This document shows, in pieces, positions 50,368 through 56,653 of a stretch of DNA of 56,653 nucleotides. The stretch comes from Phycisphaerae bacterium. Its GTDB lineage: Bacteria > Planctomycetota > Phycisphaerae > Phycisphaerales > SM1A02. The notes under the pieces were generated by a model. It did no database searches and was not told where the DNA came from. It was given only the letters and a program-made list of their open reading frames with translations. Position 1 is the first letter of the stretch; the number at the start of each line of letters is the position of its first letter. Location: contig VGXO01000013.1 of NCBI GenBank assembly GCA_016873275.1, positions 1 to 56,653 on the forward strand, read 5' to 3'. Made by a program: the position numbers and the translations under genes.

Positions 50368-50453
50368 CCGCGAGAGCGACGCGGGCGCCGCCGACGACTT
50401 CATCCGGTCCCGCCGTCGATCCAACCCGTCCGCGCGAGGACGCCTCCTCACCA

Positions 50454-50567
50454 GACTTGACCAGAGGTTCGACCCGAGACTCGACCGGAGCTTCGACCGG
50501 AGACTCAACCCGAGACTCGAATGAAGACTTGGTCGGAGACTCGACCGGAGCTTTCATCGGAGATTCT
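50454..50567 (+). repeat. 12-bp tandem repeat ending in a ribosome-binding site
   Basis: Nine units of 12 bp (50454-50561), consensus GACTCGACCGGA, plus a partial tenth. Most units contribute a GGAG or close relative at the unit junction. The last one (GGAG, 50558-50561) lies 8 nt before the ATG of the CoxG-like gene at the normal Shine-Dalgarno distance. The 12-bp period keeps frame, but the translated four-residue repeat (DSTG-like) is not credible as a gene. Confidence 0.8.
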
Positions 50568-51036: not shown

Positions 51037-51696
51037 CTCTCCCGCGAGGAGCTCCGCGACGAGCGGGAGAGGTCGGTTCGCGACCGTCGGTCGCGAACCG
51101 GGTGAGGGTGGCATGACTCGAGACGATCGTCGCGGGGCGCACGCATCGCGACGACGCCGGTCCCTCCTCGTCGTGCTGCGGACCGCCCCCACCGGGCTTC
51201 TCGCTGCGCTCGAAGCCCGACTCCCCCGCGTCGCTCCGCTCGCGGGAGAGTGACCGAGCGATCCGCCTACTCCGCCAGGAGCTCCGCGACGAGCGGGAGC
51301 GTGTCGAGCCGACTCTCCCACCTCTCCCGCGAGGAGCTCCGCGACGAGCGGGAGAGGTCGGTTCGCGACCGTCGGTCGCGAACCGGGTGAGGGTGGCATG
51401 ACTCGAGACGATCGTCGCGGGGCGCACGCATCGCGACGACGCCGGTCCCTCCTCGTCGTGCTGCGGACCGCCCCCACCGGGCTTCTCGCTGCGCTCGAAG
51501 CCCGACTCCCCCGCGTCGCTCCGCTCGCGGGAGAGTGACCGAGCGATCCGCCTACTCCGCCAGGAGCTCCGCGACGAGCGGGAGCGTGCCGGGCCGACTC
51601 TCCCACCTCTCCCGCCCGGAGCTCCGCGAAGAGCGGGAGAGGTCGGTTCGCGACCGTCGGTCGCGAACCGGGTGAGGGTGGCCTCACTCGAGACGA
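51037..51696. repeat. Repeat array A: 285-bp tandem units rich in hairpins
   Basis: Two complete, nearly identical 285-bp units start at CTCTCCCGC at 51037 and 51322. A truncated, more diverged third copy starts at 51607 and ends near 51696. Each unit holds four stem-loops: CTCTCCCGC...GCGGGAGAG, a 12-bp stem CGGTTCGCGACC/GGTCGCGAACCG with 3-nt loop (51074-51100 in unit 1), GGGCTTC...GAAGCCC, and an imperfect ACTCCCCCGCG...CGCGGGAGAGT. GGGTGAGGGTGG follows the second hairpin. Open frames through the array encode low-quality protein. It sits between convergent genes (CoxG-like and acyl-CoA dehydrogenase). Confidence 0.92.
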
Positions 51697-51741
51697 ATGC
51701 GAGAGTTCCCCCCGTGCGAACGCACGCCACCCCAAAGCACG

Positions 51742-53041: not shown

Positions 53042-53460
53042 AGGGTCGATCCTAGTCAGAGCAGGGCGGTCAGGTCAGGACGGCCGGAGCAGGTCGCCGG
53101 AGTCGGCACGGCGACGCCGGGGAGCGGCGAGGAGGCGTGCAACGCGAGCCTCGCCCGAACAACGTTCCTCGGTCGTCATCGGCATGGGCGAGATCGCCCG
53201 CGGAGGAAGGCTCCCTTGATGGCTCAATTGATGGCTCACTTGATGGCTCACTTGATGGCTCACTTCGTGCCTCCCTTGGTGCCTCCCTCGGTCCGACGGC
53301 CGAACGAAGAACCAGTGCCTTCGCCAGAACGCCCTTCCGGAGTCAGGATGCCCCACGGACGGGGTCACGAGGTGGTCGAGATCGCCGATCCGGCGGGGAG
53401 TCGGGTCGGCGCGACGCGATGTGCCCCGGCCGCGACCTCCGCGAGGGGTTTCCGGACCGA
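53042..53460. other. Intergenic region with 12-bp repeat
   Basis: About 420 bp between the acyl-CoA dehydrogenase start (minus) and the end of the metallopeptidase gene (minus). It contains the 12-bp tandem repeat at 53211-53294. No credible gene; the frames with Met-Ala-His repeats are produced by the repeat. Confidence 0.5.
53211..53294. repeat. 12-bp tandem repeat, seven units
   Basis: Seven consecutive 12-bp units, with central copies CTCACTTGATGG, grading into CTCACTTCGTGC, CTCCCTTGGTGC and CTCCCTCGGTCC at the right end. It differs in sequence from the 50454 repeat but has the same period. On the minus strand it lies about 170 bp upstream of the acyl-CoA dehydrogenase start. Confidence 0.8.
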
Positions 53461-54803: not shown

Positions 54804-54950
54804 GGATCGAGTCGCGTCGGCGACCGCACGTCGCCGCCTCTATCATCGACCCCCGCGCGAGGGCGTCAAACCGGGAGCGGGCGAGCGGTCCGTCCGCTCG
54901 AGCCTCGCCTCCCTCAAGCTCCCGTCCGTCGCGCGATCGAAGGAGCCCTC

Positions 54951-55604
54951 GTGAGCACCACGCCCACCGACCTTGACCGACGCATCGCCCAGTTCGAGCG
55001 CATGGCGTCCGCGGACCCCGACAACGAGATGGCGCACTTCTCCCTCGGGAACGCCCTGCTGCAGGCAGGTCGGCCGGTGGACGCCGCGCGCTCGTTCGAG
55101 ACGTGCGTGCGGCTGGCGCCCGGGATGAGCAAGGCGTACCAGCTCGCGGGGCAGGCGATGATCGACGCGGGCTGGGCGGACAAGGCGGTCGAGGTCCTCT
55201 CGAAGGGCTACGAGGTCGCCGCGGGCAAGGGCGACCGCATGCCGCAGGAGTCGATGGCGAAGCTCCTCCGCTCGATCGGTCGCGAGCCGCCGCGGCTCTC
55301 CGCGGAGGTCGAGTCCGCCGCCGCGAAGCTCCGCGAGTCGGGCACCTTCCTCTGCCAGCGAACCGGTCGCCCCGGGCACCAGATGGCGAAGCCACCCTTC
55401 AAGGGTCCCATCGGCGCATGGATCCACGCGAACATCTCCGAGGAGACCTGGCAGGAGTGGATCCGCCAAGGCACCAAGGTGATCAACGAGTTGCGCCTCG
55501 ACCTCTCCCGCGAGCACGACGCGGTCACCTACGACCGCCACATGCACGAGTACCTCGGGATCGACGAGGCGGCGATCCGCGGCGAGGCGGCGCAGACCCG
55601 CTGA
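54951..55604 (+). CDS. TPR domain fused to YggX-like Fe(II)-trafficking domain
   Basis: 217 aa from a GTG at 54951 with AAGGAG 6 nt upstream. Residues 1-110 are TPR-like (NEMAHFSLGNALLQAGRPVD, RSFETCVRLAPGMSKAYQLA). Residues about 133-205 resemble YggX: FLCQRTGRPGHQMAKPPFKG, IGAWIHANISEETWQEWIRQ and GTKVINELRLDL...YDRHMHEYLG, parallel to YggX's FC..L.REAEGLD..P.PG..G..I..NIS.EAW..W...QT.LINE.RL and the C-terminal helix. The front Cys is kept. YggX protects iron-sulfur enzymes from oxidative damage. Such a fusion is unusual but has been seen in planctomycetes. Confidence 0.7.
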   Translation: MSTTPTDLDRRIAQFERMASADPDNEMAHFSLGNALLQAGRPVDAARSFETCVRLAPGMSKAYQLAGQAMIDAGWADKAVEVLSKGYEVAAGKGDRMPQESMAKLLRSIGREPPRLSAEVESAAAKLRESGTFLCQRTGRPGHQMAKPPFKGPIGAWIHANISEETWQEWIRQGTKVINELRLDLSREHDAVTYDRHMHEYLGIDEAAIRGEAAQTR

Positions 55605-55642
55605 GGTCGGCCGCCGCGCGGAGACCGCGGAGGACTTCCTCC

Positions 55643-56653
55643 CTCTCCCGCGAGTCGCCACGCGACCATCGGGAGAGCTCGGGATCGCTCCACCTCTCCC
55701 GCGAGTCGCCACGCGACGAGCGGGAGAGGTCGCCTCGCGAACGCAGTTCGCGAGGCGGGTGAGGGTGGTCCGACTCGCGACGATCGTCGCAGGACGCACC
55801 TGTCGCGATGACGCCGGACCCCGCTCGTCGTGCTCCGGACCGCGCCCCACCGGGCTTGCCGCTTCGCGACAAGCCCGACTCCCCCGCGTCGCTGCGCTCG
55901 CGGGAGAGTGCCCGATCGCTCCACCTCTCCCGCGAGTCGCCACGCGACGAGCGGGAGAGGTCGCCTCGCGAACGCAGTTCGCGAGGCGGGTGAGGGTGGT
56001 CCGACTCGCGACGATCGTCGCAGGACGCACCTGTCGCGATGACGCCGGACCCCGCGCGTCGTGCTGCGATCCACCCCCACCGGGCTTGCCGCTTCGCGAC
56101 AAGCCCGACTCCCCCGCGTCGCTGCGCTCGCGGGAGAGTGCCCGATCGCTCCACCTCTCCCGCGAGTCGCCAGGCGACCATCGGGAGAGCTCGGGAACGC
56201 TCCACCTCTCCCGCGAGTCGCCACGCGACCATCGGGAGAGCTCGGGAACGCTCCACCTCTCCCGCGAGTCGCCACGCGACGAGCGGGAGAAGTCGCCTCG
56301 CGAACGCAGTTCGCGAGGCGGGTGAGGGTGGTCCGACTCGCGACGATCGTCGCAGGACGCACCTGTCGCGATGACGCCGGACCCCGCGCGTCGTGCTGCG
56401 ATCCACCCCCACCGGGCTTGCCGCTTCGCGACAAGCCCGACTCCCCCGCGTCGCTGCGCTCGCGGGAGAGTGCCCGATCGCTCCACCTCTCCCGCGAGTC
56501 GCCAGGCGACCATCGGGAGAGCTCGGGAACGCTCCACCTCTCCCGCGAGTCGCCACGCGACCATCGGGAGAGCTCGGGAACGCTCCACCTCTCCCGCGAG
56601 TCGCCACGCGACGAGCGGGAGAAGTCGCCTCGCGAACGCAGTTCGCGAGGCGG
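55643..56653. repeat. Repeat array B: higher-order array of 230/231-bp and 51-bp hairpin units
   Basis: Unit starts (CTCTCCCGC) are at 55643, 55694, 55925, 56155, 56206, 56257, 56487, 56538 and 56589. The order is short (51) - long (231) - long (230) - short - short - long (230) - short - short - long (cut by the window end). The pattern gives a 332-bp higher-order period. Long units contain four stem-loops in the same order as array A, including CGCCTCGCGAAC/GTTCGCGAGGCG (55731-55757) and GGGCTTG/CAAGCCC. The short unit is a nested hairpin with GTCGC/GCGAC inside CTCTCCCG/CGGGAGAG. It lies just downstream of the TPR-YggX gene. Confidence 0.92.

Follow-up and report, generated by a model that had tools for sequence, protein, structure and literature searches.

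The BoxC/PIT/TM_ECO element of E. coli is described as a class II intrastrand purine triplex with the order 5'-CCCTCNCCC N3-6 GGGNGAGGG N3 GGGNGAGGG-3' (Holder et al. 2015, PMC4666352). A count over 262 proteobacterial genomes gave 3610 motifs, often as inverted pairs, and at such pairs in E. coli deletions that leave a hairpin were described. Formation of the triplex was seen in vitro but not by DMS footprinting in vivo, and no promoter or terminator activity was found for PIT elements in E. coli. The published triplex finder is limited to loops of 1-6 nt and would therefore not report cores whose loops are hairpins. Another group of dispersed palindromes, the REP elements, has GTAG and CGTC families that are known in Planctomycetes (PMC3733652). 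The string "planctomycet" does not occur in the main text of PMC4666352, and searches of the open-licence PMC literature for a structured-loop form or for these letters in bacterial repeats returned these two articles as the relevant ones.

The locus described here, array B in the genome of a Phycisphaerae bacterium, is composed of long (L) and short (S) modules. In our proposal, it probably arose by tandem amplification, at this site, of a palindromic repeat that is non-coding and dispersed in the genome and the core of which would be a structured-loop form of the BoxC/PIT/TM class II triplex motif. As in BoxC/PIT/TM_ECO, the strands follow the class II order pyrimidine, purine, third, with arm letters nearly identical to CCCTCNCCC ... 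GGGNGAGGG ... GGGNGAGGG. The copies are likewise intergenic, G+C-rich and frequently arranged as inverted pairs, their number differs sharply between close relatives, and the probable origin of S from L recalls the deletions that leave a hairpin. There are also differences. The arms of the core have 8 nt (pyrimidine arm CCTCTCCC, as compared with CCCTCNCCC) instead of 9, which places them outside the TM_ECO consensus, and the loops between the three strands, both hairpins of 21 and 28 nt, lie outside the published definition of 1-6 nt. Unlike those of TM_ECO, the inverted pairs are joined by a middle of about 75 bp into a 230-bp unit and form long mixed arrays of S and L. They are over-represented between convergent 3' ends, whereas the motifs of E. 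coli MG1655 are more often upstream of genes. Expansion of a repeat is in itself ordinary; what is unusual is that it yields, in Planctomycetota, a variant of a known triplex motif with structured loops, which the papers found do not describe from this phylum.

Layout of array B and its copies in the genome

The window, that is, the whole stretch of DNA that was analysed (56,653 nucleotides), equals the whole of contig C13; the draft assembly of the genome has 136 contigs and 3,233,085 bases (3.23 Mb). An earlier note had described an array at the right end of the window with the module order S-L-L-S-S-L-S-S-L and a 332-bp higher-order period. Both were borne out by the module borders read off the sequence, which give 51 bp for S and 230 or 231 bp for L, and by Tandem Repeats Finder, which returned a period of 332, 2.2 copies, 99% matches and a score of 1467, far above chance. 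The period is the sum of two S and one L (51+51+230), with S-S-L repeating from 56155. The note was also right that arrays A and B have a common unit architecture, that S is a nested hairpin resembling the first hairpin of L, and that the array runs off the window; since the contig ends where the window does, this is also where the assembly is broken by the array. It was confirmed that array B is real and laid out as described. The features of the region are the following.

51037-51700, + strand: array A, a member of the same family with a period of 285 bp, flanked by a CoxG/SRPBCC gene (+) and an acyl-CoA dehydrogenase gene (-)
54951-55604, + strand: left neighbour of array B, TPR + Iron_traffic (PF04362, YggX-type) protein, stop 38 bp before the array
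55643-55693, + strand: S1, one nested hairpin and a 16-nt spacer, without a third strand
55694-55924, + strand: L1, 231 bp, inverted-pair unit, forward core with 8/8 triads
55694-55765, + strand: 72-bp core of L1, consisting of CTCTCCC (pyrimidine strand), loop hairpin, GGGAGAGG (purine strand), linker hairpin and GGTGAGGG
55758-55765, + strand: putative third strand GGTGAGGG of the L1 core
55925-56154, + strand: L2, 230 bp, inverted-pair unit, 8/8 triads
56155-56205, + strand: S2, opens the first 332-bp higher-order unit
56206-56256, + strand: S3
56257-56486, + strand: L3, 230 bp, purine strand GGGAGAAG, 7/8 triads
56487-56537, + strand: S4, opens the second 332-bp unit
56538-56588, + strand: S5
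56589-56653, + strand: L4, 65 bp, cut by the contig end, GGGAGAAG variant as in L3

The copy number of the array is insecure, as the assembly is a draft. The higher-order period could even have arisen during short-read assembly, from a loop through a repeat that had been collapsed; the contig does end inside the array, and 18 contig ends have repeat matches no more than about 410 bp away. The individual copies carry differences of their own, however: L1 has 231 bp, L3 and L4 have GGGAGAAG, and S2 and S4 share one change. Moreover, mixtures of S and L with other spacers and periods are found inside contigs at three other loci (L035, L036 and L048). An assembly artefact is thus very improbable. 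The 18 contig ends at or near copies of the repeat explain why the genome breaks into so many contigs.

Three long open reading frames run across array B on the (-) strand (54843-56588, 55525-56607 and 55529-56434; 581, 360 and 301 aa) only because several frames of the repeat are free of stop codons, and a gene caller might list them as proteins. At gathering thresholds Rfam gave no match in the whole window. The window also holds 12-bp tandem repeats at 53209-53285 (GGCTCACTTGAT) and 50453-50550 (AGACTCGACCGG), which have no relation to the triplex family.

When the genome was searched by blastn with the 332-bp unit, 114 matches were found on 30 of the 136 contigs. Thirty-five stretches around these matches were profiled together with the window by iterated nhmmer, which resolved 43 arrays or single copies. 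These comprise 49 L-type units (140 model positions or more), 30 S-like units and a further 34 that are partial in other ways. Twenty-six are multi-unit arrays, and 11 mix L and S.

Anatomy of the core and the predicted triplex

Each L carries a 72-bp core twice, in opposite orientations, and the core has the arrangement CCTCTCCC-hairpin-GGGAGAGG-hairpin-GGTGAGGG. The forward core is followed, about 75 bp further, by a diverged core on the opposite strand, and owing to this inverted arrangement the profile of L finds L in both orientations. The 35 distinct forward cores are all equal in length (72 bp). Folding with DNA parameters, against 200 shuffles each, gave two hairpins in a row for the 72-bp core of L (z = -6.8) and a single nested hairpin for S (z = -2.4). 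In the linker hairpin (hairpin 2) the letters vary and the pairing is kept: 97.9% of the helix cells are paired across the 35 distinct cores, and 6 of the 11 pairs show changes on both sides. Over the whole core structure, cells with two-sided changes numbered 46, as compared with 10.3 in shuffles, none of 500 shuffles reaching 46.

Conservation was compared in 24 units, one per locus, taken from the well-scoring near-full units alone. The mean pairwise difference was 0.000 for the pyrimidine strand (CTCTCCC), 0.010 for the purine strand GGGAGAGG and 0.009 for the third strand GGGTGAGGG, and it rose to 0.177 in the linker hairpin, 0.164 in the loop and 0.285 in the middle. The third strand, for which the core offers no Watson-Crick partner, is conserved like the purine strand (0.9% versus 1.0% pairwise difference, with 28.5% in the middle). 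Template switching can restore mispaired hairpin arms, but not a single strand related to its partner by a mirror. The constancy of GGGTGAGGG needs another cause.

The triad rules for intrastrand triplexes were taken from the introduction of PMC4666352. When the third strand is read 3'->5' (GGGAGTGG) against the purine strand 5'-GGGAGAGG-3', all 8 of 8 triads are allowed. This is the case in three units of array A, in L1 and in L2, while L3 and the unit on contig C104 have 7/8; the order pyrimidine, purine, third strand is thus accompanied by allowed triads with one mismatch at most. Among the loci of this genome, 8/8 triads were obtained for 47 of 101 hairpins in the mirror register and for 65 of 101 in the parallel register, a comparison that does not separate the two because GGGTGAGGG fits the purine strand either way. 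The mirror test was therefore moved to other Planctomycetota genomes.

A pattern with the critical positions left free was searched in 392 Planctomycetota genomes and matched 158 of them; a backwards control also matched some, usually far less in match-rich genomes. The sample for co-change consisted of 29 motifs at 27 loci of other Planctomycetota, one locus per genome; 19 of the 27 loci were from a single family (f50), and these were mostly short-loop motifs. Position 4 of the purine strand equals its mirror partner (A/A, G/G or T/T) in 25 of the 29 motifs, with a shuffle mean of 10.9 and 0 of 10,000 shuffles reaching the observed value. A direct register would demand an A at the partner throughout, as the aligned purine position is fixed as A. 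In this sample, drawn largely from one family, the third strand is thus tied to the purine strand in evolution. Among the matches listed in the free-position search, the third strand follows the purine strand even where the pyrimidine strand is mismatched, as in CCTCGCCC...GGGAGAGG...GGTGAGGG and CCTCTCCC...GGGGGAGG...GGTGGGGG. Two genomes, G121 (family f65) and G180 (family f79), gave 578 and 493 matches to the free triplex pattern against 59 and 28 in the backwards control, and would be good places for a larger co-change test.

Within the element itself, the forward halves have A/A in 46 of 61 units and A/G in one, the other 14 not being matched, and the inverted halves have G/G in 34 of 61, with 27 not matched. 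This contrast is seen although pairing between the halves would favour equal letters. The homologous unit in another genome of the genus (G001) has C.G/G in all three strands together. The linker hairpin is weaker in other genomes, where p <= 0.05 against shuffles was reached for 13 of the 32 distinct long linkers. The letters of the repeat appear to fit an intrastrand triplex with hairpin loops, and the triplex itself is a prediction.

Growth and probable collapse of the arrays

Spacers were 83% alike within arrays (116 comparisons) and 48% alike between them (1109 comparisons), a difference reached in none of 1000 permutations. As the spacers are more alike within than between arrays, the arrays grow in place. 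The spacers are not strictly private, since one copy at another locus (L053, 5909-6177; C22:28108-28376) carries the spacer of array B, as if unit and spacer had moved together.

The earlier note had suggested that S units derive from L as partial duplications. The derivation from L stands, but duplication describes it less well than deletion: the comparisons support S as an L from which the stretch between the two GGGAGAG arms has been lost. Seven of the 11 mixed arrays were taken into this test, and one of these (L054) had no L to test. In 4 of the 6 evaluated arrays, removal of that stretch leaves the local S length, namely in array B (230 to 51 bp, best identity 0.88), L036 (247 to 53, 0.96), L048 (246 or 297 to 53, 1.00) and L049 (245 to 52, 0.83). 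The expected length was not obtained in L045 and L047 (53 or 50 bp as compared with a local S of 47), nor from the oddly split units of 228 bp in L048 and 225 bp in L049. In the opposite direction, S may have come first and L may have formed by insertion into S. The S units of L049 (6021-6811; C3:123620-124410) measure 52 and 64 bp, and the inner stem of the 64-bp form looks duplicated. Growth of the arrays needs no intact triplex, since L3 and the L on contig C104 have only 7/8 triads and S has no third strand.

Gain of the repeat, its placement and a proposed mechanism

Two contigs of relatives, JAPOKA010000037.1 (L105, identified as contig C161 of G002 by a 100%-identical gene at the matching place) and JAFMML010000003.1 (L130), carry the array B junction. 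In both, the YggX-TPR gene and a BatA/VWA gene face each other with 84 bp and 30 bp, respectively, between them, and the motif is absent. The orthologous BatA gene of this genome starts contig C104, right behind an S tail, an S, an L of the GGGAGAAG variant and the array B spacer. Most likely, array B spans the end of C13 and the start of C104, again as S-S-L, with a gap between them. In the relatives looked at, the fusion of a YggX-type PF04362 domain to TPR, with DHODH alongside, is conserved. At the site of array A, the same relatives have an AAA_28-family gene between the acyl-CoA dehydrogenase and CoxG/SRPBCC genes (L105 5804-6406; L130 5835-6434). Matches to this gene exist in both G001 and G002, and the present genome has none, which indicates that it was lost here. 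These comparisons point to a recent gain of the repeat at the array B junction and to lineage-specific gain at two junctions.

Apart from the genome itself, a blastn search of 40 relatives with L2 gave only three weak matches, with 1 and 0 for the two other genomes of the genus, G001 and G002. In the pattern searches these two had 1 and 0 matches with the letters freed and 0 with fixed letters. In the phylum, the pattern with fixed letters and hairpin-length gaps matched 27 of 392 genomes, and its backwards control none of the 392; one genome of the family (G022) had 28 matches with other stem letters. The repeat is thus dispersed and has multiplied in this species alone: among the three genomes of the genus compared, no other shares its expansion to 48 matches.

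High copy number in one species and 1 and 0 in two others of its genus, together with gain at two junctions in one lineage, would also be expected if REP/BIME- or MITE-type palindromes had been moved in trans by a transposase, the tandem copies being by-products and the triplex-like letters incidental. The intergenic position, the inverted pairs, as in BIMEs, and the inverted repeats at the unit ends (CTCTCCCGCGAG ... CTCGCGGGAGAG) agree with this explanation. MITEs are short non-coding units with terminal inverted repeats, and the present unit resembles them in its non-coding nature, its length of about 215-230 bp and its termini, which are such repeats. Unlike MITEs, it is built of two inverted double-hairpin cores, and no partner transposase was identified in a search for Y1_Tnp alone. 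With the GTAG and CGTC superfamilies of REP/BIME (PMC3733652) it shares dispersed intergenic palindromes, inverted pairs, clusters and species-specific expansion. A REP is, however, a tagged palindrome of 20-40 bp, whereas the 35 cores have 72 bp and end in CTCTCCC and in GAGGG or GGGGG, without GTAG or CGTC tags; the unit is also much longer and has an invariant G-rich single strand beside its hairpins. Y1_Tnp (RAYT-type) is present in 14 of the 25 genomes searched but not in this one. Mobilisation in trans with incidental triplex letters is therefore an unlikely account of the repeat. A RAYT-type transposase was rejected as the driver because of the absence of Y1_Tnp matches in this genome, with which past mobilisation is still compatible.

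Placement was analysed with a home-made codon-usage gene caller, the weak point of which is gene calls beside open repeats. A called gene was present on both sides within 1.5 kb for 25 of the 43 arrays; the other 18 had none within that distance on one side, often because of a contig end. The flanking genes were convergent in 13 of the 25 arrays, tandem in 7 and 2, and divergent in 3. Among the 90 repeat-free gaps that measured 100 bp or more, 11 had convergent flanks (Fisher p = 7e-5 in comparison with the arrays), as had 35 of all 233 repeat-free gaps (p = 7e-5). Gene ends facing arrays were 3' in 45 of 68 cases versus 68 of 180 in repeat-free gaps.

This convergent placement, the excess of 3' ends and the compensatory changes that keep the linker helix are what a DNA or RNA hairpin at gene 3' ends would lead one to expect, that is, a bidirectional terminator or a stabiliser of mRNA 3' ends with G-rich tails related to protein binding or a G-quadruplex. 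Such a function would not predict the mirror co-change of the third and purine strands, arrays of over 1 kb are far above the need of a terminator, and PIT elements did not have terminator activity in E. coli (PMC4666352). We regard this explanation as improbable.

Under the triplex reading, when the strand becomes single at a replication fork, in a transcription bubble or under strong supercoiling, CCTCTCCC would pair with GGGAGAGG. GGTGAGGG could then fold back on the purine strand as a reverse-Hoogsteen third strand, the two connecting loops being hairpins, and L would present two such cores head to head. In the cell, triplex formation would be transient. Stalling or slippage at the fold and unequal recombination among existing copies may drive the growth of S-S-L and its collapse, and the excess of arrays between convergent gene ends may mean that a roadblock is best tolerated there. 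What can be read from the sequences compared is how the core is built, its mirror relation, the constraint that keeps the third strand constant, growth in place, collapse and gain at the junctions; the function and spread of the repeat are what we infer from them. A more far-reaching idea, which we consider doubtful, is that Planctomycetota possess a distinct, selected class of DNA elements formed by hairpin-loop triplexes, in which a stem-loop would offer the third strand to the purine strand. In this species they would have become a set of head-to-head double triplexes across the genome, the arrays acting as adjustable bidirectional roadblocks to replication or transcription at convergent ends, and S would be spent units that record earlier fork events.

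The Planctomycetota copies bear on whether intrastrand triplex motifs are selected or are by-products. The E. coli motifs show almost no variation in the third strand, so that co-change offers no test there. The variable copies of Planctomycetota, in which mirror partners change together, make the triplex reading testable by comparative sequence alone, and the S/L arrays may be a visible record of collapse and re-amplification at a triplex motif.
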